64,000 nucleotides of DNA from Patiria pectinifera (lineage: Eukaryota > Echinodermata > Asteroidea > Valvatida > Asterinidae), in NCBI GenBank assembly GCA_029964075.1, contig CM057142.1, forward strand, positions 139,770 to 203,769, read 5' to 3'. Under the pieces are notes generated by a model. It saw only the letters and a program-made list of their open reading frames with translations. It ran no database searches and was not told the origin of the DNA. This document shows positions 34,483 to 59,100 of this stretch, one piece after another. The number at the start of each line of letters is the position of its first letter. Positions within the stretch are counted from its first letter, which is position 1. The position numbers and the translations under genes were made by a program.

Positions 34483-34670
34483 TATTTGCTCTTTTCACAC
34501 TCCGCCATTGGGCATGCAAAGCCTCGGTCTGGCAACTTTACACAATAAAAATAGCCGGTTCAGTGATCTGAACCCCGACTCGGGAATCACTGAACCGGCT
34601 ATATTTATTGTGTGAAGTTGCCAGATGGAGGCTCTGCATGCCCTTGGCGGAAGTGTGAAAAGAGCGAATA
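34483..34670. repeat. Foldback element, about 190 bp
   Basis: The left arm begins TATTTGCTCTTTTCACAC and the right arm ends GTGTGAAAAGAGCGAATA. The inner arms TAGCCGGTTCAGTGAT and ATCACTGAACCGGCTA enclose an 18-bp loop. Nearly the whole element pairs with itself. Confidence 0.85.
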
Positions 34671-36233: not shown

Positions 36234-36656
36234 CCGTGTATAATAAAAATGAGTTATCCATTGTGGTGAAGGAAGACCAAAATAGCCCGCATAATACGGT
36301 ATTTATAGGGAACCGTGTTGATAAATGATGCACTTGATCCAAAGTGGCAGCCCGACCCCGGACGCCCACGTGTAACCAACCCTTCGTTGTTGTTTGTTGT
36401 TTGGATCCCGACACTGTGCCCAAAAAATAACGTGACCTTAAATAAACCGGGTTGAGAAGTGCGACAATTTTTTTTTTATCAGTGACAGTTTGATCATTAT
36501 AGGCCTACTGGCAAAATGTGTATGAATCCATGATCTCTACTACACTATCCGACGCGCGCTATCGCGGTCCCTCTATTAAGCAAATATCTCTGTGAAGTGT
36601 TCTTTTTTGTTGGTTCACGGAGGGGCCAATTACCTACCGAACGAATTACCTCCCCG

Positions 36657-36725
36657 ACCGACTGACTGACTGACCCCCCCCCCCCCGACTGACTGACTGA
36701 CTGGCTCCCGGACTGGCTGGCTGGC
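36657..36725. repeat. Compound 4-bp simple repeat around a C run
   Basis: CGACTGACTGACTGA, a C run, GACTGACTGACTGACTGG and GGCTGGCTGGCTG follow one another. Confidence 0.85.
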
Positions 36726-36836
36726 TGATGGCGAAGATAGCCGGGCAGTGCTATCGTATATGATTACCCCGTACTAATGCGATACAACCAGCGCATTGAG
36801 TGCACCAGATGTGTGGAGAGACCGCAAGTGAATAAC

Positions 36837-37589
36837 TATGGAAGTGTAGATAGGACATGGTTAAAAATAAATCTAATTCGTACGTACGAATTACTAATTC
36901 GTACGTACGAATTACTAATTCGTACGTACGAATTACTAAACCGTACGTACGAATTACTAAACCGTACGTACGAATTACTAAACCGTACGTACGAATTACT
37001 AAATCGTACGTACGAATTACTAAACCGTACGTACGAATTACTAAACCGTACGTACGAATTACTAAATCGTACGTACGAAATAATTACGAATTACTAAATC
37101 GTACGTACGAAATAATTAGTAATTCGTACGTACGGTTTAGTAATTCGTACGTACGATTTAGTAATTCCAGTGGCGTAGCCAGGAATTTTCCAGTGGGGGC
37201 CGCCGGGGGGCCTGGAACATTTCAGGTGGGGGCGTCATGTAGATCAATGATAATCTTTTTAAAACTCAAAATCTCAGTGGGGGGGCGACTTGGGGGGGCG
37301 ACAAGGTTTCAGGGGGGGGGGGGCTGTCGCAGTGGCGTGGCGTTCCAGCCCCCAGCGCCGCCCCCTCCCGAAAAATTCCTGGCTACGCCACTGCCCCCAC
37401 GCCCCCTCCCGTGGCTACGCCACTGAGTAATTCGTACGTACGGCTTAGTAATTCGTACGTACGAATTAGTATTTCGTACGTACGGTTTAGTAATTCGTAC
37501 GTACGAATTAGTATTTCGTACGTACGGTTTAGTAATTCGTACGTACGAATTAGTTTTATTTTTAACCATGTCCTATCTACACTTCCATA
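36837..37589. mobile_element. Mobile element built of palindromic 21-bp repeats, with TIRs and TSD
   Basis: The termini TATGGAAGTGTAGATAGGAC and GTCCTATCTACACTTCCATA are perfect inverse complements, continuing inward for about 36 bp. The direct repeat AATAAC flanks both ends (36831-36836 and 37590-37595), which marks a real insertion. The interior consists of 19 copies of a 21-bp unit centred on the self-complementary CGTACGTACG with ATTACTAA(A/T)C linkers. The first 11 copies run one way and the rest in the inverse orientation, so the element is one large palindrome. It is split by a second element at 37168-37425. The long open frames here are translations of this repeat, not genes. Confidence 0.9.
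37168..37425. mobile_element. hAT-like non-autonomous element nested in the 21-bp-repeat element
   Basis: Starts CAGTGGCGTAGCCAGGAATT and ends GTGGCTACGCCACTG. It is flanked on both sides by AGTAATTC (37160-37167 and 37426-37433), an 8-bp duplication as made by hAT transposases. The interior is G/C-run-rich, and a second GGCTACGCCACTG end at about 37381-37393 suggests a compound or rearranged copy. Confidence 0.8.
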
Positions 37590-38585
37590 AATAACCCTTC
37601 TGAATCAATGGAATATAACTTTGAATGTCTCTCCCAGTGGTCTCCCCAAACTCTCTCTTCCTTGTCGTTGAGGGGGTACTTGTGCACGGAGCCCATAGCC
37701 AGCGAAATAGACCTATATCGTAAAAATGTAGAGGAAACACATTGTCATCATGGAGTAAAGTTAAACGCGGTGAAATCACGACGAGATACGCCTCCCCGAA
37801 ACAACTGAAATACGACCCTCTCTTTGCATTTTTGGGGGGGTGTCACGCTTAAAGTTTCAGAATATAACCCGTTACCGTTACCATGCATGGTCACGTTATA
37901 ATATTGATACCCTCTGATCGGAAAGCAGTGCACAGTATTGATAAGAATTCCACCATCACCCCACCAGTCTTCTGTCACAGTGTCACTATTGTTGCGCTAT
38001 TTGTTGAACTCAGAATTTATGGGATCGTCTTTTCACATCGTGCTGGAAAAAAACAACCTAGGTTTGGTTCATAGTCCATGTTTAACGAGCCGTTAACGCA
38101 TGCCAAAATTGCCATTACACACCTCTGGGTACACAGGAAAATGTGCAAATGTAGAATGAGAATCCCAGTGGAGTGAACGAAAACAGCATCATGAGGTCTA
38201 TTCCGGACCGCCTTTTCGTTTCAGAGATTCACCGTGTGCCAGGCACGGTTATAAATGTGTTTGAGGTCAACGCGTGAAATAAATTAAACCATCCATTTAA
38301 CTTATCAATCAGTGCAACGAGCTTGTCAGATGTACATGGTAGATTATGCATGTACGACATGCAGATCCGTGGGAACTGTCGACTTGCAAGCAATACCGGT
38401 CCAGAAGGCTGCACTGCTCTTTAGGAACAAGAACGATTCAACAAGAGTAAGAACATTTTGAGACGCTTGTCTCAGTTCGTGTGGGCAGGTAGCTATATGT
38501 CTATACCTGCAAGGACTATTAATTATATTTGTTAAATTTTCTGCAGGTTGATCTCGGCAGGACAGTAGTTTATTGAACACGCACA

Positions 38586-41500
38586 ATGTACAAGGTCGGT
38601 GAAAATGATCCTGGAGATGTACCGGTGGTGGTAACCGGCGAGCGCAAGGCGTGTGGATGCGGGCCGTGTCATCCCCGGTGCCTCGCACCCCTGGCTCGCC
38701 CGGCTGTCTTCTCTGTGCTCATGGCTCTCATCCTGATCGTCGAGCTGGCTGCCATCAACGGCTACATTGGGGCCATCACTTCCACCTTAGAGAAGCAATT
38801 CCTGCTATCCAGCTCGGAGGTTGGAGCCATCTCCATTATCAACGACTTGGTCAGTCTACTGGTGGTGGGCATCTTCACGTACTTCGGTCACTCGGCGCAC
38901 CGACCGCGCGTGGTCGGTACGGGCGCCTTGCTCGTCGGCGTCGGCACGGCCATATGCGCTCTGCCGCACTTTACCACTGAAATCTCCACGGGCTCGTTCG
39001 ATTCGAACGCCTCTCAGCATCGGGTTTGCGGGGAGTCTGAGAACACAACTAGTTTCGGAAATAATGCTCCGGAGAAGTCCAGGTACACCAGTTTGTATCT
39101 CTTCATCATTGGACAGATTGTGGTGGGAGTTGGTAACGCCCCCATCATTCCACTGGCCATGACATACGTGGATGATGCAGTCGAGAAGCACAAAACAACA
39201 GCATATATTGGTAAGAAGCCGTCTGCGCAATTCAAATCTTATGTATTGTTATAATTCTGGCGATTTCCTTTTGAACGTAATGAAAGTCAAATAGACCTGA
39301 CACAAAATGACGTCGCGCTTTATTTACATGTGCGCTTTTTCTATGGGAACTTCGAAGCTGTCGTCCCAACCTGGCTCCCACAAGTAAGTGCAGGTGTAAA
39401 CAAAGCATGACGTCATTATTTCCCATGTCTTTTGGTCACAGATAAGTGTAATCCCTTGTTGGGATTTATCCTGACAAATAAAAATAAAAAATCATCTGAA
39501 CCACTTAATAATTCAGATTTTCAAAGCCCTTTCACAATTTCCAGAGTTCTGTAGGCCTATTAAACATTATGACCAATATGCCTATTTGACTTTAGGCCTA
39601 CACAACTGTCTATTTCCTCATCAAATACAAGGCTTCATCTCTTGAATGCAAACTGATGCTGTAGTAGGACCGATAATAATCCAAACTTCATTTTTGGTTC
39701 CCCTCTCATGATACTCCTCAGCCGTCATCTACATCGGTACCTCCGTAGGACCCATGGTAGGTTTCCTCGTCAGCAGCTGGACCCTGTCACTGTACGTGGA
39801 CCTGGGCACCATTCCCCGGGACGAGTGGCCGGCCGTGCCCCGCAACGATCCCCGCTGGATCGGTGCCTGGTGGCTGGGGCTCCTGGTCCTCGGATCCGCC
39901 ATGGTCCTCCTCGCCCTGCCGCTGTTCCTGTTTCCAAGGAGCCTTGGGACCCCTGTTGATGAGCCTGAGACCACGAAGAGTTCGGATGTTGCGGGGCTGA
40001 GATGCAACGGGGTGGAACTCCGCGGAGCCAGCGACCGTAAGGAAAAGGAGGAGGGGTTTGGTAACGAACATCAATCGGAGACCAAGAAGTTTGAGACAGA
40101 GATCAGTCGAGATCAGGACAAGATGGAGAAATTTGAATCCAAGGAAAGCTCGAGGACATTAATGGGCCAGGTGAAAGGTATGATGATTGTCCTTTATTTT
40201 AGATTTTGCTTGCTCTTCATTTTGCCGCAGACCCTCCCTTTCTATAGTTTATGGAATAGATAATGCGAGCAGATTCGGCGATTATTATGCAAAACAAAAC
40301 TGCGTCTTGACCTCGAGATTCTGACCATTTAGCGGGCGCCTTGTTTCGGGTCTTCCGTAAACCATTGTTGTTTTACAAAAACATGTCAGCTAAATTGACC
40401 AATCAACAGCTCAGCACACATTTCTGATCGAAATGACTTCGCAATTTCTTAGGTCGACTCCGATTGGCTGGCGCGCGGGATCGCATAAAATTGTCGTTGC
40501 TATTTTATATTGTTTGCTCTCAAATTAATCCACCTTTCAAACTCCTGTACACGAGCTGGATCTCCTTTACTTTACGTCGTTCATTGCCAACCAAAGCTCT
40601 GTACTCTTGTGCAATCAGATTTCCTATCGGCTCTCTTGCGACTTGGCCGAAATCTGACGCTGGTGGCGCTGGCACTTGGCTTGGCATCAGAGCTGGCAAT
40701 CGTTAGTGGACTGACGACGTTTGGCGCCAAATACACGGAGACACAATTCGGCGTGAGTGCAGGATGGGCTGCGTTACTCACTGGTAAAGAGTTGACAGAA
40801 TTATCCTGCAAATTAGCCAATTACTTTTAAATACATAGGCCTATCTATAGGGCGAATCTAGCTTTCAGGAAATGAGGGTCAATTTTGAAGCTACGATTCT
40901 TTCTCCTACATTTTGAGGCAGTTTGAGAATACATTTAGAGAATAGCATTCCATTTATTATTTTTGGCCCCAATTTACTAGTACACGTGTATAATAACATT
41001 AGTAATTGGCTGAACGAGAAGGGGAGGGAGTTCTCCCCCCCCCCCCTCCCCCCAGATCCGCCACTGATCAATGTTTGCGAATTTCGCTGAGAATATTTCG
41101 TGACGTCAAATCTCGTGAAGAATGGGTTGCGCCCTTTCACAGCTCACTCCCATGCTCTTTTCATTCAAAAATGTAGCCAATTTGTTTAGCGAAAAAAAAA
41201 GCAGAACGTTAGCATGGTCATCGGTGCTTCTTCGTTTACAGCAAGCAGAGCCCAGCTCACCACAGTAAGTAAAATGAAGTGCTTTGATTTCCTTGATTTT
41301 GTTTGGTTCTCGATTATCACACGATTATCTTTCGTCTGCAAACCCCTCTCGATATCAAAGGTGTAGCCATCCTGCCGGCATCTTGCGCAGGACACCTCCT
41401 TGCAGGCGCGTTTCTGCGACGCTTCAGACTGACGGCTTTCCAGTGCTCCGTCTTCCTCTGCATCACCGTACTTGTGACTCTCTGCATCTACCCCTTGCTG

Positions 41501-44500
41501 ATGTTTCTGGGGTGTGACACTCCTACTGTGGTTAGGTAAATTGAGGCCATCGCAATTTTTAAGGAATTTGTGGGATTGAAACTATATGATTTTGGTGATG
41601 CGGTATGAGGACGCCACTTTATGGGTGGTAAGTCTAGTTTGAATAATCCGGTTTTTTTTAATTTTGTGTTGGAGTTCAACGTGAAGGTGAAGTTATTGAA
41701 AGCAGAATCAAGACTTCAGACTTTGGTGTCAGATGATGATGCAGGCAGGCGAATAGCTGTACAATTGGTTGGAGTATTTCCCTGCTAAATAACATCCAAA
41801 CCGAACCTGACCATTGCAGACAACACAAAGCAAGCGAAAGTTTTCACAAGTTAACGGATATTTCTTTTAGAAGTTTTAACAATGCAGCTGTAACATAGGT
41901 TTGGGCCAGTGTCTGTCATGTCTTGGGTGTTAACCAGACTTGACTCGGGTTAGATTCGCCCCTTGTGAAGCTCTGAGCTGCCGCCTAGATTTTAAGGATA
42001 TAGTTCTGCTGAAATTGCGATATGGAGGTAACAGCTGATTCTGAGTTGGCCTACACAATGTCTGAAAGGTTCCTGGTCAGATTCAGGGTCAAAATGCGAC
42101 ACTTTGCGGGGTCGACATGGCACATGAAAAAGTGTCATTTCGACCCTAAATGGACAAAAGCACCCAGATTCCAGGAACTCTCTTTTTTGTACAGGCTGAA
42201 TGCATGATACCATGCATGGGTGGCACGGGTGGCTAGTGCGTAACTTGGGCGCTCGCCTCTCACCACTGTGGCCCTGGTTCGATTCCCGGCTGCTGACCAT
42301 TATTTGAGTAGAGTTGCGCGTTGGTTCTCTCCTTTGCCACAGGGGTGTTTCGGTTTTCCTCCCTCCGGAAAAATACCAAACACTTTCGATCTCAGGCTGT
42401 ACTTCGTAGTCATAATATGGGTCGATGTGGCTGGCTGCCAAAGGCGCCTTTACATGCATGCGGCTCGACCACGCTGTAGCCGCGTCCTTTGCAATTCAGC
42501 TTCTCAACTGCGAGTATTGATTAGCCTCCCAAATTATCATTATCCGAGAACCAAGCACAGGGTCCGACTTGAGTCGAATCCAGTTGCAAGATGTAAAAGT
42601 AAGAAGACTTCAGACTTCTTCGGTCTTAATGAACTCCGGGACAAAATCATTTTAGAGGAAATTGGGACTGTTGTGTTTGACAAAGGCATCGACTAAAATC
42701 TCGCGAGTTGCCGTTCAACCGTTTTGGGGTTTCTTTCTCCCCCAGTCCCGAGTCGAAATCGTGCACCAGCTCTCAGTGTGTCTGCGATGACACCGTCATT
42801 GATCCAGTGTGCGGTGTGGATGGCTTGACATACCTATCACCGTGTCTCGCCGGCTGTGTGGGCAGGGACGAAGAAAACAAGGTGAGACCTACATCTCATG
42901 ACTTTTAAAACGAAGCATGGTCGACTGCTGTGATGTTGGACGTAGCATATTTTGAAATTCGAGGGACGCAGAACACCCGAGGAAAAGTCAGGGTACCGTG
43001 ACAGGGATGCGTTCAACTCACTCAAAAAATGCAAACGTTTGCCAACGTTAGTATACGTTTTCCCAACGTTGGTAAACGTTTTCCTGTTAGATGTTCACAA
43101 AAAGATCACGCGAACGTTGGGAGCGTTTGCACGTGTGGAACGCAGCCCAGGCGTTCCGACATCGTCACAATAATTATGTCAACCAGATAAAAGCCATGTA
43201 TTAGTTACTCTGCAAGAAACGTATGAGATGATCGTTGTGTGACCTGTGATAAATGCACGTGAGTTGGTCTTGCGGCAGGTCAATCAATCGTGAGCGGTAT
43301 TTCGATGATGTAAAATTAATAATGTAATGGTTGTTAAGTTTCCAGGTGAGTTCCTCGATCAATGCATTGGAAAGTCAGTATTTAAGACACGACATTTTAC
43401 AATGTAATATTTGTTCCATGCAGTGCTAACCTATACACAAACTGTAACCACCATTAAAAAAACAATTCATCATTTCTGTCACAAATTCTCCAAACATTCC
43501 AGACCTTTTCAGATTGCAGTTGCATCCAGGGACCCGGTGCCAATTCGTCGTCTACCGAAGACGAATCCAAGGCATCTTGGGAGGCCAAGGTATCAGCGTG
43601 CCCGCTCTTCTGCACCATGATGGTGGCCTACATCGCCACCTCATCCATGGCACTGTTCGTCATGTTTATGGGCCAGAATCCTTCCATGATAATCAATCTC
43701 AGGTACGACATGGTCCGAAAATTTGGGACTCTCTCAATACTGTCTACGAGTCCCTAAACTTAAAAAAAAAAACATCCCATGCAATACAAGAAAATAGACT
43801 GGCACACGAAACAACCGTTCCAACGACATTTTAGTATACTGCATCAATCAATGTGTCAAAAGAAACATCTGGTATATTCTCCAGTTTTGTCCACATTTCT
43901 AAACTAGACTACTGAAGGGTCAATCTGCTCAAAAAGTTGGATACGTACCAGTCTAGTCCTAGGCTTAAAATTGAAACCACTTGACTTCACTCTCAGGTGC
44001 AAAATGTTAGAGAAAAGTCTCCTTTAAAAATTGAATTGAGACCTCAAACTTGGCTGGTGAAATACTGAGGACCTTGTCTTCGCCTCATGAAAGTTTTGGG
44101 GAATTTATGTCGGCTAAAGAGAGAGTAAAGTTGGCCTGATTTTATTTTGCATGTTTTCTGCACTCAAGGTCTCAGTCTGGGTACGAAATGTAAAATAGCG
44201 GGCAGAATTTTTTCATCCAATAGCCGTCTATAGGTTGATTCATTCTTCACGCGAAAGGGAAAGCGAAGCGAATTTCATGACGGATAAGCCTTGGCAGCTT
44301 CGTTGTGGCGATCGCCGTTTTCCTAACGAAAACATTTCGCACTGAAATATGTGAAATGTGAACGGGGCCTGTAGAAACATAATTATGACAACGTGGGGAC
44401 CTGTTGCTTTGCATCTTGGATGCATCTCAAGCCGTTTTCGCATTGGATGTTTTTGTGTAAAACTCGCCGAGACAGTCGTTGCTCTTCCTATTTTGATTCG

Positions 44501-47500
44501 CAATGCAGCGACCCCGGCAAGTTTCTTTCGCTCTTTGAAACTTTTGTCAGAGTTCAGGGGTTACTTTTACCGGCAAAAAAAATTACCCATTATAATTTTT
44601 ACTGTTGACTCTGTAAAAATTCACAAAAGTAAGTTGAGTGAGAATACGGCTTTAAAGCCATGATGTATTATCATTTGCAATTACCCGGAAAAGTAACCAC
44701 TATTTTAATGAAGGAAACTTTCTCTAAGTGAAGATAGGACTGGTGTCAAATACCATGTGGAATTTGTCGCCTGAAATGGTTTCGTCTGCAAGAAAACTGA
44801 CATTGAAGGTGCTTTCAAAATACGTTGCCGCGGGAACACTTGTTCACGTGCCTTATAGCAACGGAATCCAGTTACAAGAACCATTTCTTTCTCATTATAC
44901 GTTTTCTCTAGTCTGTTTTCTCAAAATGTATAGTGTCTTTAAGCTGAAACTTCATCAGCTTAGTTGTTTGCACCATACTTAAGATTTTGATTTACAATTT
45001 TGGTGCTTCAAACGAAAACCAAAGCCCCAAAAGCAAAATGTACCAACGTATACTTTAAAAGTGATTCCAAATCTAAGGTGAATATTGATATACAAAATGG
45101 TTTAACAATGGTGTGACTTGTCTGTATGCAGGTGCGTGGACGAGAAAGATAGATCTTTCGCCATCGGAATGCTGACTTGTGTTATCAAGGTCATCGGTAA
45201 GGCTAGTATAGAGTTTACATGTGTATATAATCCATATTACATCATTTGCTCGGCGATTCACTATTGTTCAGGACTTCTTAATTATAAAATGGAAGCAAGA
45301 AATTGCCTGGAGCGGGCTTTAAACCTGCGACCTACGGCCGGGCTACGGATTACCGTTCCGGTGCTATACTAACTGAGATATCCAGTCCAATGTTGGCGGT
45401 CCCCAGTTTGTCAGTGTCCTTGCTTATTGGTCGGCAGAATCCACAGATCCGTACGTATCATGCCATGTAGCCAGGTATCACGACCAAGGTGACGATGCTA
45501 GCAACATTAGGCCTATAGCAATATTGCAAACCTGGGGAAAAGTATAACCTACTCTATGGAACCAGAGGTCGATGGACGATTGCATTGATTAAACTGTTTA
45601 GTTTAAAAACATTTTTTTAACCAATAAAAAACGTTGATTCCGCCCGGGTTCGAACCGGGGACCTTTCGCGTGTTAGGCGAACGTGATAACCGCTACACTA
45701 CGGAATCTGATGTCGATGTCGATATACGATTAGATTGATTGCGCTTTTTAGTTTTAAAAACATTTTTTTAAGCCAATAAAAAAAACTTGATTCCACCCGG
45801 GTTCGAACCGGGGACCTTTCGCGTGTGATGCGAACTTGATAACCGCTACACTACGGAATCTGATGATGGTAAACTCTTTCTTTGATTGTGCTTTTTTAGG
45901 TTAAAAACATTTTTTTTAACCAATAAAAAAAAAGTTGATTCCGCCCGGGTTCGAACCGGGGACCTTTCGAGTGTTAGGCGAACGTGAGTTTAACCGCTAC
46001 ACTGCGGAATCTGATGGTGGCAGACGCTTTCGTTGATTGTGCTTTTTAGTTGAAAAACATTTTATTTACAACTAAAAAAAAGGTGATTCCGCTCGGGTTT
46101 GAACCGAGGACCTTTCGCGTGTAAAGCGAACGTGATAACCGCTACACTACGGAATCTGATATCGATATACGATTAGATTGATTGCGCTTTTAGTTTAATT
46201 TTTTTAAACCAATAAAAAAAGTTGATTCCGCCCGGGTTTGAACCGGGGACCTTTCGCGTGTGAGGCGAACGTGATAACCGCTACACTACGGAATCTGGTG
46301 GTGGTAAACGGTTTCTTTGATTGTGCTTTTTACTTTAAAATTATTATTTTTTTATAAATATAAAAGATGATTCCGCCCGGGTTTGAACCGGGGACCTTTT
46401 GCGTGTTAGGCGAACGTGATAACCGCTACACTACGGAATCTGATGATGGTAAACTTATTCTTTGATTGTGCTTTTTAGTCTAATTTTTTTTTTTAACCAA
46501 TAAAAAAAAATTGATTCCGCCCGGGTTCGAACCGGGGACCTTTCGCGTGTGAGGCGAACGTGATAACCGCTACACCACGGAATCTGATGGTGGTAAACGG
46601 TTTCTTTGATTGTGCTTTTTAGTTGAAAAACATTTTATTTACAACTAAACAAAATTGATTCCGCACGGGTTTGAACCGAGGACCTTTCGCATGTTAAGCG
46701 AATGTGATAACCGCTACACTACGGAATCTGATGGTGGTAAACGGGTTTTTTTTTTTATAAATATAAAAGTTGATTCCGCCCGGGTTCGAACCGGGGACCT
46801 TTCGCGTGTGAGGCGAACGTGATAACCGCTACACTACGGAGTCTGATGGTGGTAAACGGTTTCTTTGATTGTGCTTTTTACTTTAATTGTTTTTTTTATT
46901 TTAATTTTTTTTTTTTATAAATATAAAAGTTAATTCCGCCCGGGTTCGAACCGGGGACCTTTCGCGTGTAAAGCGAACGTGATAACCGCTACACTACGGA
47001 ATCTGATGGTGGTAAACGATTTCTTTGATTGTGCTATTGAGTTAAAAAAAAAAACATATTTTTTTTTACAAATAAAAAACGTTGATTCCGCCCGGGTTCG
47101 AACCGGGGACCTTTCGCGTGTTAGGCGAACGTGATAACCGCTACACTACGGAATCTGATGGTGGTAAACGGTTTCATTAATTGTGCTTTTTACTTTTATT
47201 TTTCTTTTTCTTTTTTTAATAAATATAAAAGTTGATTCCGCCCGGGTTCGAACTGGGGACCTTTCGCGTGTAAAGCGAACGTGATAACCGCTACACTACG
47301 GAATCTGATGATGGGAAGACGTTTTCTTTGATTGTGCTTTTGAGTTTAAAAAACGTTTTTTTTTTACAAATACAAAAACGTTGATTCCGCCCGGGTTCGA
47401 ACCGGGGACCTTTCGCGTGTTAGGCGAACGTGATAACCGCTACACTACGGAATCTGATGATGGTAAACGGTTTCTTTGATTGTGTTTTTAGTATAATTTA

Positions 47501-50500
47501 CTTTTATAAATATAAACGTTGTTCCGCCCGGGTTTGAACCGAGGACCTTTCGCGTGTAAAGCGAACGTGATAACCGCTTCACTGACTTTTTCTAGTCTAG
47601 CTGTGACATTCTTTGATTGTGCTTTTGAGTTAAAAAAAAAATTAACAAATAAAAAACGTTGATTTCGCCCGGGTTCGAACAGGGGACCTTTCGCGTGTTA
47701 GGCGAACGTGATAACCGCTACACTACGGAATCTGATGGTGGTAAACGGTTTCTTTAATTGTGCTTTTTACTTATTTTTTTTATATATATATATAAATATA
47801 AAGTGTATTCCGCCCTGCGGGTTCGAACCGGGGACCTTTCGCGTGTAAAGCGAACGTGATAACCGCTACACTACGGAATCTGATGATGTGAAGACGTTTT
47901 CTTTGATTGTGCTTTTGAGTTTAAAACATTTTTTTAAACCAATAAAAAAGTTGATTCCGCCTGGGTTCGAACCGGGGACCTTTCGCGTGTGAGGCGAACG
48001 TGATAACCGCTACACTACGGAATCTGATGATGGTAAACAGCTTCTTTGATTGTGCTTTTTAGTTTAAAAACATTTTTTTACAAATAAAAATAGTTGATTC
48101 CGCCCGGGTTTGAACCGAGGACCTTTCGCGTGTTAAGCGAATGTGATAACCGCTACACTCCGGAATCTGATGTCGATATACGATAAGATTGATTGTGCTT
48201 TTTTTTATATTTTATTTTTTAATAAATATAAAAGTTGATTCCGCCCGGGTTCGAACCGGGGACCTTTCGCGTGTTAGGCGAACGTGATAACCGCTACACT
48301 ACGGAATCTGATGATGGTAAACGGTTTCTTTGATTGTGCTTTTTAGTTGAAAAACATTTTATTTACAACTAAACAAAATTGATTCCGCCCGGGTTCGAAC
48401 CGGGGACCTTTCGCGTGTGAGGGAAACGTGATAATCGCTACACTACGGAATCTGATGGTGGTAAACGGTTTCTTTGATTGTGATTTTTACTTTAATTGTT
48501 TTTTTTTTTATAAATATAAAAGTTAATTCCGCCCGGGTTCGAACCGGGGGCCTTTCGCGTGTAAAGCGAACGTGATAACCGCTACACTACGGAATCTGAC
48601 GGTGGTAAACGATTTCTTTGATTGTGCTATTAAGTTTTAAAAACTTTTTGTTTACAAATAAAAAAAAATTGATTCCGCCCGGGTTCGAACCGGGGACCTT
48701 TCGCGTGTTAGGCGAACGTGATAACCGCTACACTACGGAATCGGTGACGATTACATTGATTGGGCTTTTAAGTAGGAAAACTTTTACAAATAAAAAACGT
48801 TGATTCGGCCCGGGTTCGAACCGGGGACCTTTCGCGTGTGCGGCGAACGTTATAACCGCTACACTACGGAATCTGATGATGGTAAACGGTTTCTTTGATT
48901 GTGTTTTTTAGTTTAATATTTTTTAATAAATATAAAAGTTGATTCCGCCCGGGTTCGAACCGGGGACCTTTCGCGTGTAAAGCGAACGTGATAACCGCTA
49001 CACTACGGAATCTGATGGTGGTATACGATTTCTTTGATTGTGCTTTTGAGTTAAAAAAAAAAAAAAAAGTATTTTGTTTTACAAATCAAAAACGTTGATT
49101 CCGCCCGGGTTCGAACCGGGGACCTTTCGCGTGTAAAGCAAACGTAATAACCGCTACACTACGGAATCTGATGGTAGTAGACGGTTTCTTTTATTGTGCA
49201 TATTAGTTAAAAAAAAAATTTTTTTTTTTACAAATTACACACATTTATGCTTGGCAATACAAATTGTTGCTTGGCGATGCTTCCGCTCGGGTTTGAATCG
49301 GGGACCTTTCGCGTGTGAGCGAATGTGATGCCGCTTAAAAAATTGAGAATGCATTGTTGAGGATTAAGTCAAAGATTTGGTTTGTTTTTAAAGCGAACGT
49401 GAAAATTGCTTCTGGGCTCCAATTTGCAGGGTGGACATGTAGGAGTGGCACCTATGGACTGGGATGCACAATGGGTTTCAAGTAATAAAAAGCTCATCTG
49501 CCTTCCCTCAAATTCTGAGCGGGGAGAGTGGGGGGGGGGGGGGCACAAGGAGAAGTCATACAGGGCTTTTGCAGAACCAGGGCCCTTGGGCCCAGCCCCC
49601 GCCCCCTTGTTCTTAAAATTCCGATGAACAAAAACATCAATATTCACAACGTTCAATACATTTTTGTTTAATCATTTTGTTAAACCTCGTTTACTTCGGT
49701 AGGATTTTTCCCGGCACCCGTTTACTTCGGTGCAGTCATCAAATCCACGTGCCTCCTCTACGCGTCGAGCGAGGGCGCTGTACTATATGAAGAAACCGCA
49801 AACTCTGTCTGCTGGCACTACGACCTGCCTGCGTTCAGACGGCGATTTTTCGGCTTGCTGATTGGACTGAAGTCCAGCACGCTGATTTTCTTCCTGATCA
49901 CTATGGCATCACTGTGGAGGAAAAGAAAAGAAGAGGTAATGGAACAGTCGTTGACAATTATAAAAGTCTCATCATTATTACCACCACGTGACAAAACGTA
50001 TATATAAGCTACCCATCCGTATTTTCTTCCTATCCTGGGATCTTGAGGCGAGGTTAAATCTGAAAACTCGTTTATAAAGATATGGATATGCAAAGCGCAA
50101 GGAAGCATTTATCTGAAAGGTGGCATATTCATGTAAATCAACTATGACTGCGGGCGGAACGGTGGACTTTGCGCAGCAGTCCGACAGGAGCCCAAATGCA
50201 CCAAGCATTATGAGTTTGATATAATTATGTCCTAAAAAATATCAAACATTAGAAGAAGCAGATAGATAATTAATTACGTGCATATTTTTCAAATTTCCCA
50301 AGAGGACCCTTCAATTATTCTCCTCCCGACGCTCATGCAATATTTCCCACATCCGTCCACTATCACGGTCTCCGCCTTGTGAACAAAACATTAGGCCTAA
50401 GACATATAGTTCTGGGGTGCATTCCAGCTCACGCAATCATAACTTGTGTTCGCCAACCCCAATTGAAACGATAATGTCAACGAACAATTGTTAGTTTTAC

Positions 50501-50844
50501 TGTTTGGATAGCAGCTTTTTATAATCCTTTAAAAAAAGTAGTTGTGAGTGGAAGTGAATGTTTTCCCCAGTAATAAATTAACTTAATTGGAAAATGTCAG
50601 CCCCGATAAAAGCATTACGTTCAGTGTTTCTGTTGGTCATTATTTTGGTAAACATAAGCAAACAACTCAAAAGACCGTTCGCCTTGATTGCTAACGTTCG
50701 CCATACAACGTTGGTGGCAATACATGTCGGTCCCATTTAGATTCACTGTTATCTTTATTTTCTGTCTCCTAAACCTAGGTACAGACCGAGGAACAGACCA
50801 ACAAACGACGCCATTCTGCTTCATCCGAAACGTCATCCATCTAA
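38586..50844 (+). CDS. Solute carrier organic anion transporter (SLCO/OATP family), 9 exons, complete
   Basis: Exons: 38586-39210, 39722-40177, 40619-40783, 41361-41535, 42746-42881, 43503-43702, 45132-45196, 49703-49935, 50779-50844. Phases agree throughout, giving 706 residues, normal for OATPs. It is predicted to be a 12-helix plasma-membrane carrier for amphipathic organic anions. TM1-TM4 fall at about 42-62, 80-100, 108-128 and 168-190. The OATP signature DPRWIGAWWLGLL is at residues 251-263, before TM6. A charged cytoplasmic loop (about 285-358) follows. The Kazal-like extracellular domain, with CVCDDTVIDPVCGVDGLTY and further cysteines, spans about 480-526. The last helices include PAPVYFGAVIKSTCLLY, and the C-terminal tail is short and Ser/Thr-rich. 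NAS (141) and NTT (153) in an extracellular loop are glycosylation candidates. The substrate and the SLCO subfamily cannot be told from sequence alone. Intron 7 hosts the antisense tRNA-Val array. Confidence 0.95.
40255..40495. repeat. Interspersed repeat family C, copy 2
   Basis: In intron 2 of the SLCO gene. Matches 22490-22880 in order at CTTGACCTCGAGATTCTGAC, CGGGTCTT, AATTGACCAATCAA, GTCGACTCCGATT and GCGCGGGATCGCATAAA. Confidence 0.7.
42225..42495 (+). repeat. tRNA-derived SINE-like repeat
   Basis: In intron 4 of the SLCO gene. Begins GGTGGCTAGTGCGTAACTTG with a B-box GGTTCGATTCCCGG at about 42275, followed by a T-rich body (TTTCGGTTTTCCTCCCTCCG). A related piece lies at 58660-58880 (CCACCGCTGTGACC, TTCAATTCCTGCC, GGGGTTTTCCTTCC). 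Confidence 0.6.
45298..45388 (-). repeat. tRNA-like fragment (SINE head or tRNA pseudogene)
   Basis: Read on the minus strand it has an A-box-like TCTCAGTTAGTATAGC and a B-box-like GGTCGCAGGTTTAAAGCC, but with a long middle and poorly pairing ends. It lies between SLCO exon 7 and the tRNA-Val array but does not resemble the valine genes. Confidence 0.45.
45635..45707 (-). tRNA. tRNA-Val (AAC), array unit 1
   Basis: 73 nt on the minus strand. All stems pair (acceptor GATTCCG/CGGAATC, anticodon stem TTCGC/GCGAA). Loop CTAACAC, T-loop TTCGAAC. Followed in the transcription direction by a T run suited to Pol III termination. Confidence 0.95.
45788..45860 (-). tRNA. tRNA-Val (CAC), array unit 2
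   Basis: Anticodon loop ATCACAC. A G-U pair closes the acceptor stem and there is one D-stem mismatch (TCAA instead of TCAC), so slightly weakened. Confidence 0.75.
45936..46011 (-). pseudogene. tRNA-Val (AAC) pseudogene, array unit 3
   Basis: 76 nt. Has three extra bases in the D-loop, U8 changed to C, and a broken base pair at the anticodon-stem end (TCGAG on the plus strand in place of TCGCG). Probably inactive. Confidence 0.65.
46084..46156 (-). tRNA. tRNA-Val (TAC), array unit 4
   Basis: Loop TTTACAC. The T-stem is changed but kept paired (CTCGG with CCGAG), a compensated change that argues for selection. T-loop TTCAAAC. Confidence 0.92.
46223..46295 (-). tRNA. tRNA-Val (CAC), array unit 5
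   Basis: All stems pair. Loop CTCACAC, T-loop TTCAAAC. Confidence 0.93.
46368..46440 (-). tRNA. tRNA-Val (AAC), array unit 6
   Basis: As unit 1, with one anticodon-stem mismatch (GCAAA on the 3' side). Confidence 0.8.
46512..46584 (-). tRNA. tRNA-Val (CAC), array unit 7
   Basis: Stems pair. The one difference is near position 9 (GTGG for GTAG). Confidence 0.9.
46656..46728 (-). tRNA. tRNA-Val (AAC), array unit 8
   Basis: Loop TTAACAT, so the anticodon is AAC but the loop bases around it are those of the TAC class. One T-stem mismatch. Confidence 0.75.
46771..46843 (-). tRNA. tRNA-Val (CAC), array unit 9
   Basis: Loop CTCACAC. One acceptor mismatch (GACTCCG against CGGAATC). The spacer to unit 8 is the shortest in the array (about 42 bp). 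Confidence 0.75.
46931..47003 (-). tRNA. tRNA-Val (TAC), array unit 10
   Basis: Loop TTTACAC. The first acceptor pair is G-U; otherwise intact. Confidence 0.88.
47083..47155 (-). tRNA. tRNA-Val (AAC), array unit 11
   Basis: Identical to unit 1 over the tRNA. Confidence 0.95.
47233..47305 (-). tRNA. tRNA-Val (TAC), array unit 12
   Basis: Loop TTTACAC. One T-stem mismatch (CCCAG against CCGGG). Confidence 0.8.
47382..47454 (-). tRNA. tRNA-Val (AAC), array unit 13
   Basis: Identical to unit 1 over the tRNA. Confidence 0.95.
47521..47584 (-). pseudogene. tRNA-Val (TAC) pseudogene, array unit 14
   Basis: Truncated: the 5' acceptor strand is replaced by unrelated sequence after the D-arm, and two bases are missing at the 3' acceptor end. 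Loop TTTACAC is kept. Confidence 0.8.
47660..47732 (-). tRNA. tRNA-Val (AAC), array unit 15, weakened
   Basis: Loop CTAACAC intact, but it has one acceptor mismatch (CGAAATC on the 3' side) and one T-stem mismatch (CCCTG). May be inactive. Confidence 0.6.
47805..47880 (-). pseudogene. tRNA-Val (TAC) pseudogene, array unit 16
   Basis: A three-base insertion in the 3' side of the T-stem and a mismatched first acceptor pair. The D- and anticodon arms are intact. Confidence 0.65.
47952..48024 (-). tRNA. tRNA-Val (CAC), array unit 17
   Basis: Loop CTCACAC. One T-stem mismatch (CCAGG on the 3' side). Confidence 0.82.
48095..48167 (-). tRNA. tRNA-Val (AAC), array unit 18
   Basis: Loop TTAACAC, T-loop TTCAAAC. 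G-U in the T-stem; near the 5' end GGAGTG replaces GTAGTG. Confidence 0.8.
48236..48308 (-). tRNA. tRNA-Val (AAC), array unit 19
   Basis: Identical to unit 1 over the tRNA. Confidence 0.95.
48380..48452 (-). pseudogene. tRNA-Val (CAC) pseudogene, array unit 20
   Basis: Anticodon stem disrupted (TTTCC against GCGAA) and the conserved D-loop GG lost (CGATT for CGGTT). Confidence 0.65.
48524..48596 (-). tRNA. tRNA-Val (TAC), array unit 21
   Basis: Loop TTTACAC. G-U first acceptor pair as in unit 10; one change in the variable loop. Confidence 0.87.
48670..48742 (-). tRNA. tRNA-Val (AAC), array unit 22
   Basis: Identical to unit 1 over the tRNA. Its upstream flank differs from the array consensus (GGTGACGATTACATTG). 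Confidence 0.94.
48801..48873 (-). pseudogene. tRNA-Val (CAC) pseudogene, array unit 23
   Basis: The invariant U33 before the anticodon is G (loop CGCACAC). There is also an acceptor mismatch (CCGAATC) and a D-stem mismatch. Confidence 0.65.
48940..49012 (-). tRNA. tRNA-Val (TAC), array unit 24
   Basis: All stems pair. Loop TTTACAC. Confidence 0.94.
49096..49168 (-). tRNA. tRNA-Val (TAC), array unit 25
   Basis: Loop TTTACAC. Two changes are tolerated as G-U pairs (anticodon and D stems). Confidence 0.83.
49279..49336 (-). pseudogene. tRNA-Val (CAC) pseudogene, array unit 26
   Basis: Decayed edge unit: acceptor 5' strand missing and anticodon and D arms deleted in places, although the TTTCGCGTGTGA block is clear. 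A further remnant (AAAGCGAACGTG) is visible near 49390, so the array once reached further right. Confidence 0.75.
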
Positions 50845-51472
50845 TGGGAAAAAAACCTGTGATTTCGGTGGATCAAATTATTAATTTTGAGGATCCAACG
50901 GCAAGATCGAAAAAAAAAACCATGAAAGACAAAATACAAAATATGTATTCACCTATCCAATTCAGCTTATACATAAGTGTTGTTATAGATATTCCTTTTA
51001 GTATTGATAGCTTAATGTGTACAGTCATTTCCCTCTGTTTTGGATATATTTAATTTCCATACCTCAAAATTATTTGAGTTGAAGCTGAGGTGACAGACAT
51101 TTTTAAAAAGGCATTCTGCCAGCTTTTTGGGGAACCTGCTGAATGTTTTGGCATCCTTTTGTTATCAATCAAAATAGGTAATTAAACAGAGTTAAACAAC
51201 ATTTTTTAGCATACGTGTATTTACGATTATTAGAAGCGGACTGCACAAGCTTTAAGAGGCATGCATGTAAAAAAAAAAGATTAAGAGGTATTATGAAATC
51301 ATAATTAATTTCATTTCAGTTTTCAATAGTTTAAGAGTGATACATTTCAAACCTTATTTTCTCAAACCGCCGAGAATGCTGTCATCGATAGTTGTAATGT
51401 GTTGGTTACGTATTGAGTTGTCGAATCGGCTGTGGCCAGTATTTATTACTGACAAACTTTATGTCATATACA

Positions 51473-51478
51473 AATAAA
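51473..51478 (+). terminator. Candidate polyadenylation signal, SLCO gene
   Basis: AATAAA about 630 bp after the stop codon, in AT-rich sequence. Confidence 0.5.
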
Positions 51479-51880
51479 TTCTTTAAAGAAGGTTAGGCGT
51501 GCCAGTTATACCGCAGAAATAAACAACTGTTTTCTCAATTAACTTGAAAGCAGCATAAATGTGTAAATATACATAGCCAGACAAAGCCTTTTGGTTTGAC
51601 TCTCCCGAACCGTACCACAGCGCGAAATTCCCCAACTTTTTAGATCTGTGGAAAAAATATATATACCAATAAGCAAAATATATATACCAATGTTATATTT
51701 TTCAAATTGTCAGATCTTTTTATGGCATGCGTGAATATTATATATATGCATATTGTCATTCGGTATGCCTTCCAATAAATATTTCTATTATATGTCTACG
51801 TTACAACAGTCTCCAAGTTGTCATTTTGTATTTGAATAATGCGCGACCAATGAAAACGGCTAAGTAGTTTTCGATTTAAG

Positions 51881-52243
51881 TTGGTATATTCGTGCTTTTT
51901 CAAAATTTCTTTCCCTAACGAAAGTTAAAGGAATATAATGTCCTGTAACAAATAATTTTGCTTGTTTGTTTTTGCAGGCCTTCATACAGTTTTAAACATT
52001 GGTTTTAAATGGCACGCTCCAGTTCAGTATTTGCGCACACTGTTCAGAACGAATTAGGAACGTCCCACTCTTAATTCAAAAGTTGAAGTAAATTAATTAA
52101 TTACTTGTCATGGGCCGATCTTTTTCGTGCGATGTCTCATTGGAAAGCTCATAACTAATGTAATGCTAGAAAGTTATCCATTCAATTTGAAAATCTATTT
52201 TTCAAGGTGCCACACCCAAAAAGCACGTGTACACCAACTTTGA
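51881..52243. repeat. Interspersed repeat family B, copy 2
   Basis: Matches 10273-10645 in the same orientation, with scattered substitutions and small indels; shared blocks are listed under copy 1. Confidence 0.75.
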
Positions 52244-53129
52244 TAATAACAAGGCCGGTATTCCTTCCTTTTTAGTTTTTCCCAAAGTTGTATCCACGAC
52301 TTAACGTTGTCCTTCCTGTAATATTTTCAAAATCCAACCAGACAAATGCATTTTTTTTAAGTTGCTAGTTTCAAGCACTACAAAAGCTATCAACTTCAAA
52401 GAGCATCGTCGAACAAAAAAAAATCTGCACGCTTTAGTAATGAATTGAGGTCCAATTTCAGGCGGATCTTTTGTGCATTACAGGAGTAAAAGCAACCCAA
52501 AATGTTGCAGACATCCAAAATTGACAAAAGAGGTTTCTGTCATCGAAAAAAAAACATACAAATTGACAATCTTGTACTTGTACAATTTACAATTTGAAAA
52601 TTTGAAGGCAAAAATGACGAGGAGCATGAGGGAGCAACAATTTCTCAATATTTTTTCTTATCATACTCTTTTTTTCTAATTAAAACATCGTTTGAAATGG
52701 AAGAGATGGTCTTTGCCATCAGGGAGTTGAACAGAAAAATTGCACCCAGCCAGACCAAGCATCCACCAAACGCGGCAGTTTTACAGTGTATTATTTTGTA
52801 TTTGCTGTCAAAAAGAATATATTTTTACTGGTTCGATTGCGCCCGTCTATGTTGAAGAGCGCCCTCAAAAACACAATAGTCGGGTACCATTGAGCTTAAG
52901 TCGTGTCGCCTGACGTCGTTCGCCAAATCAGTGGATAGTAGCGCGGACTGCGCGCGATAAGTAGTACGTGTGGTTTACGGTGCCAGTGCAGTGATTCCTT
53001 GGATCACGCTTGGATGATGACGATGCGAATATTTCGTTAAAAACCCACACCGATTCTTCGCCGCTTCAGTAAAAGTTCACAAGGCTTCATCAGTTAATGA
53101 AGGAATAATTAGTAGAACCATCCCACAAA

Positions 53130-56100
53130 ATGTCGACGGAGGCTACGCTCCAGCTGCTCTGTGGAGAGAAGAAACTTGACCGAGACCGAGGTTTGGGGGA
53201 GCTTCAGCGGCTGATGGACGAGTGCGACCCGCCGGGCCTGGAGCGCTTGGAGACGGCGTTGACGAGCTTGCTGCACGGTCAGGATTCTCAGACATCGTGG
53301 GAGACGAGGCAAGGGGTTCTGTTGGGTTCCAAGGTGGTCGTAATGCACGAGTGGGGAAGTGAGACTTTTGCCACACAACTCCGATTGTACGCTCTCCATT
53401 CACTCAACGATGATGAAGCAAGAGTTCGCATCGCAGCTGGTAAAATTATGACAGTTTCACAAAATTAATACCCGTGAAGGAAAGAATGTAGCAACCTGAC
53501 GCCACCTCAGCGGTTGTGTACAAAGTACATTGTAGTCAAGAAAGTTGCCTAACAAAATTGGAAATGTTTCTCAGTCCCAGATTCATGTCTTATCATCATT
53601 TTTGCAATGATTGACCTTCATTGAGAATGATGCCCCTTTACGAAGAAACAAGTGGTGTCAGGTTGCAACATTCGTTCCCAAGTGAAGTTCAAGTGAAGTG
53701 TACTTTTTCATCATTTTACATTTTAGGCCAACATTACATGTACGCTGTGTTGTTTCCCCCCCCCCCTCAATTCACTGCCCTGCCCTCATTCCACAAGATT
53801 AAACCTCCTGATATTCAGACGATGTCATTACCAGTTGTTCAGATGTGTCAAGAAATGTATAAATGTCACTTTTGAGTGTAATTTTGTCAGCTGTTTTGGT
53901 GAGTCTTGTAACGTTATATAGTTTTTGAGACAGGTGATCTGGTCTGCCAAATTTTATAAAACTTTCCAGACATGTAAATTTCTTTGTATTCTATCCAATA
54001 AACTTGTTCCCGCTTCCACAATTTGTTTACAATGAGAAGATCTAGGATAAAAACACGCAAGAAGTCTGTATTTTAGAAGGAAAAAAAAGAGAAACAGCGT
54101 CCTCTTTGACAGAGTAAACAAACCTTTCACACACATTGAGTGCAGGCTAAAGCCGCTTGTCTTGTTTGCTCGTATCCCCCCCCCCCCCTGCCCCCTGTGC
54201 ACTGCAAACAGGATGCTGGGAAGGACTGATCTCTTTGAGCTCTCATTGGATAGATTTTGCATAACCTGTGACATAGCATGCAACACGCAAACTCCCTACA
54301 GCTGTTTATCATATATAGCGCGTGCTAGCTGCATGCGAAAATCATAAGTTACCCATAATGCCATCCATTCTTCCGTCACAAGATTCTGCAAAGTGGCATC
54401 AGCCCTTCCTAGCGCCCTGTTTGCAGGGTGGGGGATACAAGCAAACTTGTCTTGCTGAATGCTTACTTTCATCGACTTCCCGCTAGTGTTATAAAAACCC
54501 TCCAATTGTTTGATAATTCACCATACAGAGTGCATCAGAACCGGGCACTCGAGTCAGTAGCACACCCAGGATTTGGGTTTAGGGGGGGAGGGGGGGGGGA
54601 GCTCAAGCCCCCCCAGGCCCCCCCCCCCTCCCCCTGGGTGTGCCACTGACCCGAGTACCCGACTGCTGATGTCAGGAACCGGTTCCAGATTATGGAATCG
54701 GGTACCCGTAAATTGTAACCAACTTTACAAATTACTTAATGACTTCTCAGACAATGAAACAGAAAGGTTTTTAGAAAAGCTCTTTAGACAACTTCTGGGA
54801 TTTCAATTTTGGGGTTGGGTTTCTTTTAGGCCAAGAAAAAAAGTCTCCGGTTTTTGGTATGGAGCTTGCCCCAAGAGTGGTGCGGCGACGCAGCTTTTTT
54901 GTTTTGTTACTTTTTTATTCTTGAAATGTCGGCTGATGACTGCAAATGGTGCCAGACTAAATTTAGTGCAAAATATACGGGAGTCCAGAGAGGCCACACA
55001 AAGCTTATATTCGATCGTAACCCCATCTAAAAACACGTGCAGCAGCAGGATTCCAGTCAAACCAGTGAGTTTGGCGGTTTTGAGACATCATCTCACATTG
55101 AAAAAAAAAACTTTTTCATTTTGCCGACGCGCATGGCTACGGCGATGCACGCGCATACCAGAAACCGGAGACTTTTTTTTTTTTGGCCTTACGGGTACCT
55201 AGGTGCCCATGTTTTACTTTAATAGGGTACCCTGGCTGAGCACCCGTACATGTACCGGTACATGTACTACCCGTAAAATGCACACCACTCATTCACAGAC
55301 GGTATAAAATGTCTTCCATTTCTTCCCTTGCCATGCATCAAAGTTACAAGGGAATAATTGTTAAAAGCAGTCACTTGATTTATTGGCCTGGCTGAATTTG
55401 CTGACCAGAGGAATCTTTCGGCCTAATGGTCGAAATATGAATTCAAGTTTTGCCAATGCCAGCTTAGTTAAACATCTACTGTGTGTATGAATTTAAAGGC
55501 GGTTCCTCGTTTTTTTTATAATCCTAACTGTCAGAGCTGGACTGATGATTACATGTTTATAGCCCTAGATGTATGGTAATGTAACTAATGGAATTTTATT
55601 TGTCCATGTCCATTAAGTAATAGACAATTAAAATCTAGCCAGCAAATCTGTTTGGGATTTTGGGGTGGAGTTGCGCATTATCACACATCACTTAGCACAA
55701 TCAACCACAATTTCTTGCATTGTGTACAGTGTTCAGTGTATAAAACAAAATTTTTGTGCCAGTTCACATATTTTTTGTACACGTATACAATATCACGAAA
55801 AGTAAGATCTTTTTTTTTCTTTTTTTTTTTCAGTCAACATGGTCAAGTGCTATTAAAAAGGGCAAACGATTATGTAGGCCTAATTGTCTTGTTTTTACAT
55901 TGTACATGTATGTACCGGTATTTTTATATATTGTCCAGAAATGTATGCACAGTCTTGTCGACAAAAACAAACTACATGTAAATTGTAAGGATAGAGTGTT
56001 GCAAATAGTACAAAGTACTGTATATTATTTTCAAGTGGACAAAAGTAATCTACCGGTAAATATATTCTGCATTGTGCATTACAAACTACCGGTACATGTA

Positions 56101-59100
56101 GCATCCAATAAATGTACAGTGTTTTGAACATTATAATGTTCTCCAAAAAAGGGGATAGTAAAGGGAACTAAGCATTGTACAATTACTGAAACAATATAAT
56201 CATGGGATTATATGAAATTTATGGCTGGATTATTGTATGTTTGTTGCTCACAAACATAAAATTGCCATGGTTACTAAAAAGGGTTTTGTCAAAGAAAACT
56301 ACATTGCATTAAGCATGCATGTAATTACCGGTACACGTACCGGTACATGGGCTTCAATTATGTATCAGCACAGCAGATTGCATTTTAGGTGCATTTCATA
56401 CTGAGCGTCAGAAAAGTAAATACCTCTTTAGGTTGAACTTCTAAAAATAGACCTTTCCAAGGGGATCTTTACACCTGCCTTCAATATTAATGGTCTATAA
56501 ATAGAAAACGGAGCCTGGATCTCACAAAGGCCCTAATGGGCCCAGTGTTTGTTGGCCTGTGGACAGAGCTATTTTAAGCTCGGACAGGCTGCCTTATTGA
56601 TGTTTGATAAATTTGACATTTAAAAAAGGCAGGCTGCATATTACCATCCACACGGAGTGCACTAAAGCGGAATTTGTATTGCCCTGAAGAGAACACACGA
56701 AGTCCTCCCTTGTCTGTGAGGCTGGTCATGTGGGAAATAGTTAATGGGGAATAAAGACAGACAATATGGCACAGTGTAAGAACAGAACTAAGGGATGCAG
56801 ATTTTTTTTCCCCCGCCATTGACAATGGCAGGAAAGCCATATTTTTTCTTCTGAAAATTTATTTTTTTTCTTCTGAAAGTTTTTTTCTTCTAATTTCTTT
56901 CTTTCTTTCTTCCTGTTCTGTCTCAATTATAAATTGTTATCGATTTTGCCTGAAATTAGGGGCCTACATTGTACTGGTCACGATGTTAATGTGCAAGATT
57001 TACAAATGTATGTTATGATTTCTAAGACGAATAGCTTAAAACCTGCAACAATTTCAATTTGACATAATTTTTTTTCACCATATACCTCATGGGCTAAAGA
57101 CTATTTCTCATTCAGCTAATTTGGAAGTAGATTTATTGATACAGAATTTGCTTGCACGAACATGTATGTCAACTTTATCGAAAAAAACGTTTCGCCTGAT
57201 AAGCATTAATTACACTGATGGTTTACATGTACAAGTACCGGTAGCTCATTATTGTGTCACTGAACATTGGACCAGTCCCTTGTTTTGTGATTCGACATAG
57301 AAGTACATGTATGAGTTGTCGTTATACGGTACCATCCAAATTGCATCCAATTAACAGTATGCCATTGACATTAACTGATCTGCTGTATCTTTATGCAAAG
57401 TTGGGTTTTGCCCTTCACTGACATGATTTGATAATACAATACACTCAGTGTTGTCTGAGGGTTTGTGAGAAATGTCCTTTACACATACAAGCTTACTAGG
57501 GTGGGACTCGAACCCACGACCTCCTGCTTACTAGTGCAGACATCTTACCACTGGACCACTGAGCTTGCTGGGGTCAGTTGCCTGGCTCGAATCTGACAAA
57601 AATCACATCAGTGGAACGGCAAAACCTAATATTGAATTAAAGGTATCCCCCCCCCCCCCGGTACAAATAAACAGTCCATCATTTGTAATTTGTGCATTTT
57701 GTTCGTTTGAAGCAACAAACCTGCTCAAAATTTAAAGAAGGGAGCTGAACAACTAACCTGATGAAGTTTCAGCTCAGCTTCAGCCGTATATTCCGAGAAA
57801 AACAGCATTCTAGGATCTGGATTTCAAATCAAAAGTTGCTGAATCATGCCTTGAATTGGGCCTGAATTCTAGCGTCCCAGACATGTTCTCACTGAGCTGA
57901 ATGCAGCTACGTGATGTCGCGCACTGATCCAAAAAATTAAAGCAACCGCGCGCGTGTGCGTCGTGTCAATGTTTGCGTTCACTTCGCCGAATAAAAAAAA
58001 AACACTACTAACGGAAATTACTAACTAACGGAATTACTAACCATACGGCACCGTTGAAAAAGCCTTTTTTTGTTGACTTCTATAAATTATAGCATACCAG
58101 ACAGAATAATTTCACAAGGAGTTTAGTTCCCATACTATCTTTCAACCAAGTATGTTTTTCAACAATAATTGCGTCAGTTACTTTTTGGATAGCTGCAAAT
58201 GATGGACTGTAGCTTTAACATTTCCGGATGCAAAATTCCATCCCACAATTGATAGTGATATCAGCAGTTTGCCACTAGATCCCAGTTGAATTGCAACAAG
58301 CCGTGTAAACAGTGCCCATTCTTTTTTTCTACGCTTTGTTCGTGTGTGTGCCTTTGGTAGGCGAGGTCCTGGGTGCACTCTGCAAGCGCTGCGGCACGGA
58401 GGTCTACCAGTCGGCCTGCGAGCTGATCCACGATGGAGTGCGGAACAACCTGGAGCGCATCCCGCTCTCGGAGAGATCGGAGGGGGAGAGGGAGAACACC
58501 CACATCTTGATGGGGAAACTGGCCGTACGGCATGAGCAGGTATAGCCACTGTGCACGAGCATTGAGGGCGCTATTTAGTAGGATAAGGACAATCACATAT
58601 AATGTGTAAAATATAAGTTCAACAAAGGACTACTAGTTGACTGTTGCTTCCCAAACTTTTACAGGTTGCCGTAGAGATACTTTCCTCGCCGTCCACCGCT
58701 GTGACCTGTGTTCAATTCCTGCCTGGGGCAATACGTGGGTTTTCAGTCCCTGCCTGATTCCGTGGGTTTTCCCCAAAATTTTCTTCAGGGGTTTTCCTTC
58801 CACATCTAACACTAATTTCTTCACATTGTCTTTTTTTCTACTGGGCCTCATTGGAGACCAGTGGATTCCACTAAATGGGCTACCAAGTTAAAATAAGTAT
58901 CAAATAAATAAAATTAAAATAAACACCATTTAATACTTTTTCAGGGGCATTTTACAGTCTCCACGGTTTTGTCACCACACCCTAGAGCTCTGTGCAAATG
59001 ATTCACTGAATGCACGCGCGTAAAGTATGAACAACTAATTTTAGTTTGAATGCGCCAAATACCTTTAAAGTTTTGGTGTTAGTGCCAGAGGTACATGTAC

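Follow-up and report, generated by a model that had tools for sequence, protein, structure and literature searches.

A tandem array of valine tRNA genes antisense to its host within an SLCO intron of Patiria pectinifera

The degree to which transfer RNA (tRNA) genes are clustered differs widely across eukaryotes (PMC2888827), and the authors who described tandem tRNA arrays in Hydractinia and Nematostella call such arrays unusual outside Entamoeba (PMC11067881). Here we analyse a 64,000-nucleotide stretch of the genome of Patiria pectinifera (contig CM057142.1, C14:139770-203769; hereafter the window), in which a tandem array of valine tRNA (tRNA-Val) genes lies within an SLCO intron and is encoded antisense to its host. 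Tandem organization is common to the Hydractinia and Nematostella arrays and to this one, but the Hydractinia arrays comprise tRNAs for all 20 amino acids, and the passages of that paper available for comparison describe no intronic antisense position. The human tRNA variable number tandem repeat at 1q23.3, whose alleles differ strongly in copy number (9 to 43 units; PMC4041453), is likewise a tandem block, but its units are 7.3 kb long and contain several tRNA genes together with CTCF sites, whereas the ~144-bp units of the window array carry a single tRNA each and are intronic. The Arabidopsis SYY cluster resembles the window array in its tandem head-to-tail tRNA genes, grown by duplication, but it is located at heterochromatin and is silent in most tissues, while the window array lies inside a gene (PMC12308677). 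Entamoeba units are similar in their tandem arrangement and short spacers; these arrays, however, contain nearly every tRNA gene in the genome, with up to five per unit (PMC2652664). Such a genome-wide organization was not found here, where each unit contains one tRNA and where, in a survey that listed 60 tRNA matches (63 of 76052 first-look candidates scored), many matches are scattered, other tRNA kinds being either scattered or more loosely clustered, as at C1:22.21-22.23 Mb.

Opposite-strand intronic tRNA genes are known from C. elegans, in which functional tRNA genes occur within introns (44% of 609), about half of them opposite to the host strand; host promoters affect these genes, and RNA polymerase III (Pol III) is higher on opposite-strand than on same-strand ones (PMC4999229). 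The window array shares this placement, but the passages of that study used for comparison make no mention of intronic arrays. A Pol III unit lying antisense within an intron can stall RNA polymerase II (Pol II) and reduce expression of the host, as reported for the MIR element in the first intron of Polr3e, which is transcribed head-on to Pol II (PMC5358760). The window array is positioned similarly, but the Polr3e case concerns one short interspersed element (SINE) with a measured effect, whereas the window array comprises 23 tRNA genes predicted from sequence. No tandem tRNA array within an intron was found in the literature by titles and abstract openings, which is weak evidence of absence with subscription literature mostly uncovered. 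Each component is known separately: tRNA genes in tandem arrays, tRNA genes antisense within introns, and interference of Pol III with a host gene. Their combination at such density, with a length difference that is probably allelic, appears to be new.

Genes were called with ARAGORN and with the Rfam tRNA model (RF00005). ARAGORN identified 23 tRNA genes in the window, every one of them a tRNA-Val on the minus strand, as had been anticipated in the original prediction of valine cores running antisense to the host; to this the calls add a mixture of all three valine anticodons (10 AAC, 7 CAC and 6 TAC). Nineteen distinct sequences are present among the 23 genes, five of which are identical. 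Of the 27 matches that Rfam returned for the window, 24 are to tRNA and fall within the array (22 are whole and two, at 47527 and 47816, partial), and the ARAGORN gene at 47660 is missing from its list; 18 of the 24 score above 57 bits, and the concern that most units might be pseudogenes is not borne out. A scan with a 9-base core motif (at most one mismatch) located exactly the 26 units that had been predicted at ~145-bp spacing, including a remnant near 49313, with four chance matches in the other 60160 bases of the window (both strands). Tandem Repeats Finder (TRF) assigned the array a period of 144, 25.1 copies and a score of 3655, the highest in the window. The 26 tandem minus-strand units comprise 23 whole tRNA-Val genes, two damaged units and one remnant, arranged head-to-tail at regular spacing with one tRNA per ~144-bp unit (Table 1). 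The two flank words predicted to be conserved recur 14 and 18 times in the array with at most two mismatches, and five and four times exactly.

The prediction that the host is an SLCO gene, and the array-bearing intron its seventh, was upheld, the intron number being a count over eight coding segments. All five plus-strand segments submitted to Pfam match OATP, two of them under the curated cut-off, and solved OATP chains match the first and last segments. Among the six earlier segments, whose limits are those of open frames and not of exons, the four submitted match Pfam OATP and all six match a second copy of the locus, described below. A GTAAGG donor at 45197 and an acceptor AG ending at 49702 join the flanking coding segments in frame, and because these GT-AG borders connect the segment ending at 45196 with that starting at 49703, the array is intronic and antisense to the plus-strand SLCO gene; it occupies most of the 4506-bp intron. 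A search of the 613.5-Mb assembly with one SLCO exon yielded 40 matches, two of them at 99-100% (the window locus and its second copy) and the next at 46%. The 38 other places showed no coordinate coincidence with the listed tRNA-Val places, both tRNA lists being lower bounds. The 40 places suggest an expansion of the SLCO/OATP family, with related exons occurring in runs on C4, C18, C20 and C21.

The second copy lies ~150 kb away in the assembly, on a separate contig, with its array in the same SLCO intron and between the same borders. The core-motif scan counted 18 units there (16 whole genes by ARAGORN) against 26 in the window, and substitutions between the copies outside the array range from 1.1% to 5.1% by segment. 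Gaps of 500 N bound the second-copy contig, which starts at 24270 directly behind one of them and runs up to the other at 139269; the window starts directly after this second gap, and the contig contains an 84-N stretch at 76283. This 115-kb contig (C14:24270-139269) is matched over its entire length by its neighbor (C14:174102-291817), with a divergence of a few percent; the far-side matches are collinear at C14:205001, 230001 (1.5 of 4 kb only), 260001 and 288001, and stop precisely at the final base of the contig. Because the second-copy contig is contained end to end in its neighbor, we read the two arrays as alleles. Judging from the sequence, C14:24270-139269 is most likely an unmerged second haplotype retained in the assembly, and the copy number of the array most likely differs between alleles (26 vs 18 units). 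Given the gap positions and the end-to-end collinearity, a paralogue created by segmental duplication is less likely than a retained haplotype, and we likewise rate a true tandem duplication as the less likely origin. Two observations weigh against the haplotype reading: only the first 1.5 kb of C14:230001-234000 matched, and the sequence to the left of the second-copy contig has no match to the left part of the window. Both SLCO arrays share the 5'-edge remnant and a similar damaged unit; the array therefore predates the split of the two copies, and its length has changed since.

Several features of the units support their being real tRNA genes. An A box (TAGTGTAGCGGT) is present in 19 and a B box (GGTTCGAACCC) in 16 of the 23 window genes, as judged against the consensus, and a TTTT run starts 0-4 nt past the core in all 23, compared with 12.8% of spacer positions (208/1630). 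Unit-to-unit divergence is four to five times lower in cores than in flanks, with mean pairwise differences of 0.056 in the core and 0.266 and 0.286 in the flanks of the window array, and of 0.061, 0.241 and 0.276, respectively, in the second-copy array. When units of the two SLCO copies are paired as reciprocal best matches (10 pairs), differences amount to 17/732 in the core, 22/400 upstream and 26/317 downstream. The anticodon differs in two of these 10 pairs, and anticodon changes within tRNA families are on record (PMC7884595).

A genome-wide DNA search placed at least 88 tRNA-Val matches on C14 (88 of the 89 listed). A 35-place pattern with at most three mismatches matched 146 places genome-wide and none in a reversed control; the matches listed are on C14 except for one each on C1, C20 and C228, and a scan of viral contigs with a tRNA-Val pattern gave no matches. 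Two further arrays were identified on C14: a large plus-strand array at C14:8397154-8422665, with 77 ARAGORN genes and five more near 8.435-8.438 Mb, and a third locus at C14:12920643-12924771, with 10. No SLCO gene was found beside either of them. Flanks compared between loci (SLCO, large array, 12.92 Mb and a single gene on C20) produced no matches at E values up to 1e-5, and the array cores match; between the two SLCO copies, 415 flank matches were obtained. The large array has a spacing of ~200-286 bp, is interrupted by a 7-kb insert encoding a DDE_Tnp_4 transposase domain, and is followed by frames for rhodopsin-type G-protein-coupled receptors. At C20:19122629, a single tRNA-Val(CAC) sits between two MFS transporter segments of opposite strand, and is probably a second intronic antisense case, if both segments belong to one gene.

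Aligning the 132 ARAGORN genes from these five places (the window, its second copy, the two other arrays and the single gene) revealed A at the wobble position in 49, C in 47, T in 35 and G in none (131 readable, one gap). Animal tRNA-Val is not known to use G34. Within each array the wobble base varies by far the most, with an entropy of 1.55-1.57 bits against an average of 0.13-0.23 for the other positions. Two of the 132 genes have a non-valine anticodon by alignment, and ARAGORN names other than Val were given to three genes of the large array. Pair 28-42 is T-A in 50 genes (the SLCO arrays, the 12.92-Mb array and the C20 gene) and G-C in 82 (the large array), with no mismatches; this two-sided change counts as a single difference fixed between arrays and not as a series of events. 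At position 32, all 14 TAC genes of the SLCO and 12.92-Mb arrays have T and those of the large array C, from which it follows that the TAC lineage predates the split of the SLCO/12.92-Mb group. T32 also occurs in three AAC genes, two of them in the window and one in the second copy, which look, by their sequence, like TAC genes with a changed anticodon.

Anticodon order in the arrays is mixed. Adjacent units carry the same anticodon in 2 of 24 cases in the window array, against 7.4 expected (P~0.01, for one of 12 lags tested), and in 28 of 81 in the large array, against 25.2 expected. A TRF row with a period of 426 suggested a higher-order repeat in which every three units would hold one of each anticodon, but this was not supported: units at lag 3 are no more alike than other units, and they share an anticodon about as often as expected (8/22 vs 6.9 in the window array, 24/79 vs 24.6 in the large array). 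On the host sense strand, AATAAA occurs 13 times in 45775-48930, compared with 4.0 in shuffles (maximum of 11 in 500), and six times in the second copy, an excess that is uninterpretable because the units are copies of one another and the counts are not independent. The host intron holds a further tRNA-like stretch at 45305-45390, shortly ahead of the array and on the array strand, which is below the Rfam gathering level.

The locus is probably a multi-copy nuclear tRNA-Val cluster expanded head-to-tail inside an intron, each unit of which would be a Pol III gene of its own, with turnover by exchange and selection acting on the tRNA. The internal A and B boxes of each ~144-bp unit are predicted to recruit TFIIIC and TFIIIB; transcription would then run counter to the host and end at the T-run just past the tRNA. 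The array would grow and shrink by sets of units through unequal exchange or conversion, to which the 26 vs 18 units and the shared damaged units point indirectly. Conservation patterns indicate that the tRNA body is maintained by selection, as are the three valine anticodons. Other observations weigh against this reading. While all 20 tested stem pairs are formed in 13 of the 23 window genes, ten have non-pairing positions (one in eight genes, two in two), and with the two damaged units and the remnant this means that not all units need be active. The units are also copies of each other, which makes conservation counts non-independent, and T-runs arise easily in AT-rich spacers (43% A and 32% T on the tRNA strand).

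The damaged units would also fit a tRNA-derived satellite, spread as tandem DNA, most copies of which are silent and few of which need work, in the manner of the Arabidopsis tandem Ser/Tyr tRNA cluster, mostly silent across tissues (PMC12308677). Stem pairing points the same way: it is complete in 22 of 82 large-array genes (the five outlying ones included), compared with 22 of 39 genes when both SLCO copies are taken together. We nevertheless regard a satellite as unlikely, since the contrast between core and flank, the terminators, the three anticodons without G34 and the two-sided change at 28-42 argue that selection has acted on tRNA function for as long as the arrays have existed. Less probable still is a regulatory role, in which the array would form an antisense Pol III barrier and would have been retained for its tuning of SLCO expression. 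The stalling of Pol II that lowers mouse Polr3e expression (PMC5358760) and the influence of host promoters on tRNA genes in C. elegans introns, where Pol III is more abundant on the opposite-strand genes (PMC4999229), lend it precedent, but two further C14 arrays do the same tRNA job with no SLCO neighbor found, and the SLCO position is therefore explicable as an accident. An array misplaced or given a wrong length by the assembly is very improbable: the second copy does lie between scaffold gaps and resembles a false duplication, so the assembly has errors nearby, but the array lies in gap-free sequence of the window contig and was assembled again on a different contig, in the same intron and between the same borders, contrary to the artefact that the original prediction had allowed for.

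Table 1. Features of the SLCO locus and its tRNA-Val array (positions in the window).
Feature	Position	Strand	Evidence
Tandem array of 23 whole tRNA-Val genes and 2 damaged units, spacing ~144 bp	45635..49168	-	ARAGORN, Rfam RF00005, TRF
Damaged unit, TAC-type core, 5' part replaced	47527..47583	-	Rfam partial match 38.5 bits, sequence
Damaged unit, T-stem insertion and altered 3' end	47816..47873	-	Rfam partial match 29.0 bits, sequence
Remnant of 26th unit, 5' edge of array	49270..49336	-	Core-motif scan, sequence
Host intron (GT-AG, 4506 bp), array on antisense strand	45197..49702	+	Splice sites, in-frame junction
SLCO coding segment before array (start inferred from acceptor AG)	45132..45196	+	Sequence, conservation in second copy
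SLCO coding segment after array (end approximate)	49703..49934	+	Pfam OATP 506-542 of 545; PDB OATP1B1 E=5e-5
Earlier SLCO coding segments: 38577-39254, 39712-40263, 40489-40830, 41297-41539, 42681-42908, 43458-43757	38577..43757	+	Pfam OATP, second copy
Stretch with second copy at C14:24270-52227, probably other haplotype, 18-unit array in same intron	34333..64000	+	blastn, core-motif scan

Elsewhere in the window, two similar low-scoring tRNA-like sequences at 26624-26696 (plus strand) and 57493-57565 (minus strand) are probably a dispersed, SINE-like tRNA-derived repeat. TRF detected palindromic 21-bp tandem repeats rich in TACGTACGTA-like words at 36873-37167 and 37426-37554, and Rfam a histone 3' stem-loop match at 35301-35346 (35.4 bits against a threshold of 34).

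Pol II must traverse the array to produce the SLCO pre-mRNA, and some slowing of Pol II or Pol III would be expected; the interference between host expression and tRNA output suggested in the original prediction is plausible on these grounds and has a published precedent in Polr3e/MIR (PMC5358760). It is a doubtful further step to an allele-specific, length-tunable brake, in which Pol II would meet up to 23 Pol III genes, unequal exchange would shift both SLCO output and valine tRNA supply, and the 26- and 18-unit alleles would differ in SLCO expression within one animal. An array in an intron is a natural test of two transcription machines sharing one DNA stretch. Should the two copies prove to be alleles, a single animal would carry arrays of two lengths over a nearly identical gene, and allele-specific RNA could give a direct measure of Pol III braking. 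The copy number of tRNA genes, usually taken as fixed within a species, varies between the two copies of this one locus, and the three valine anticodons are retained, in mixed order.

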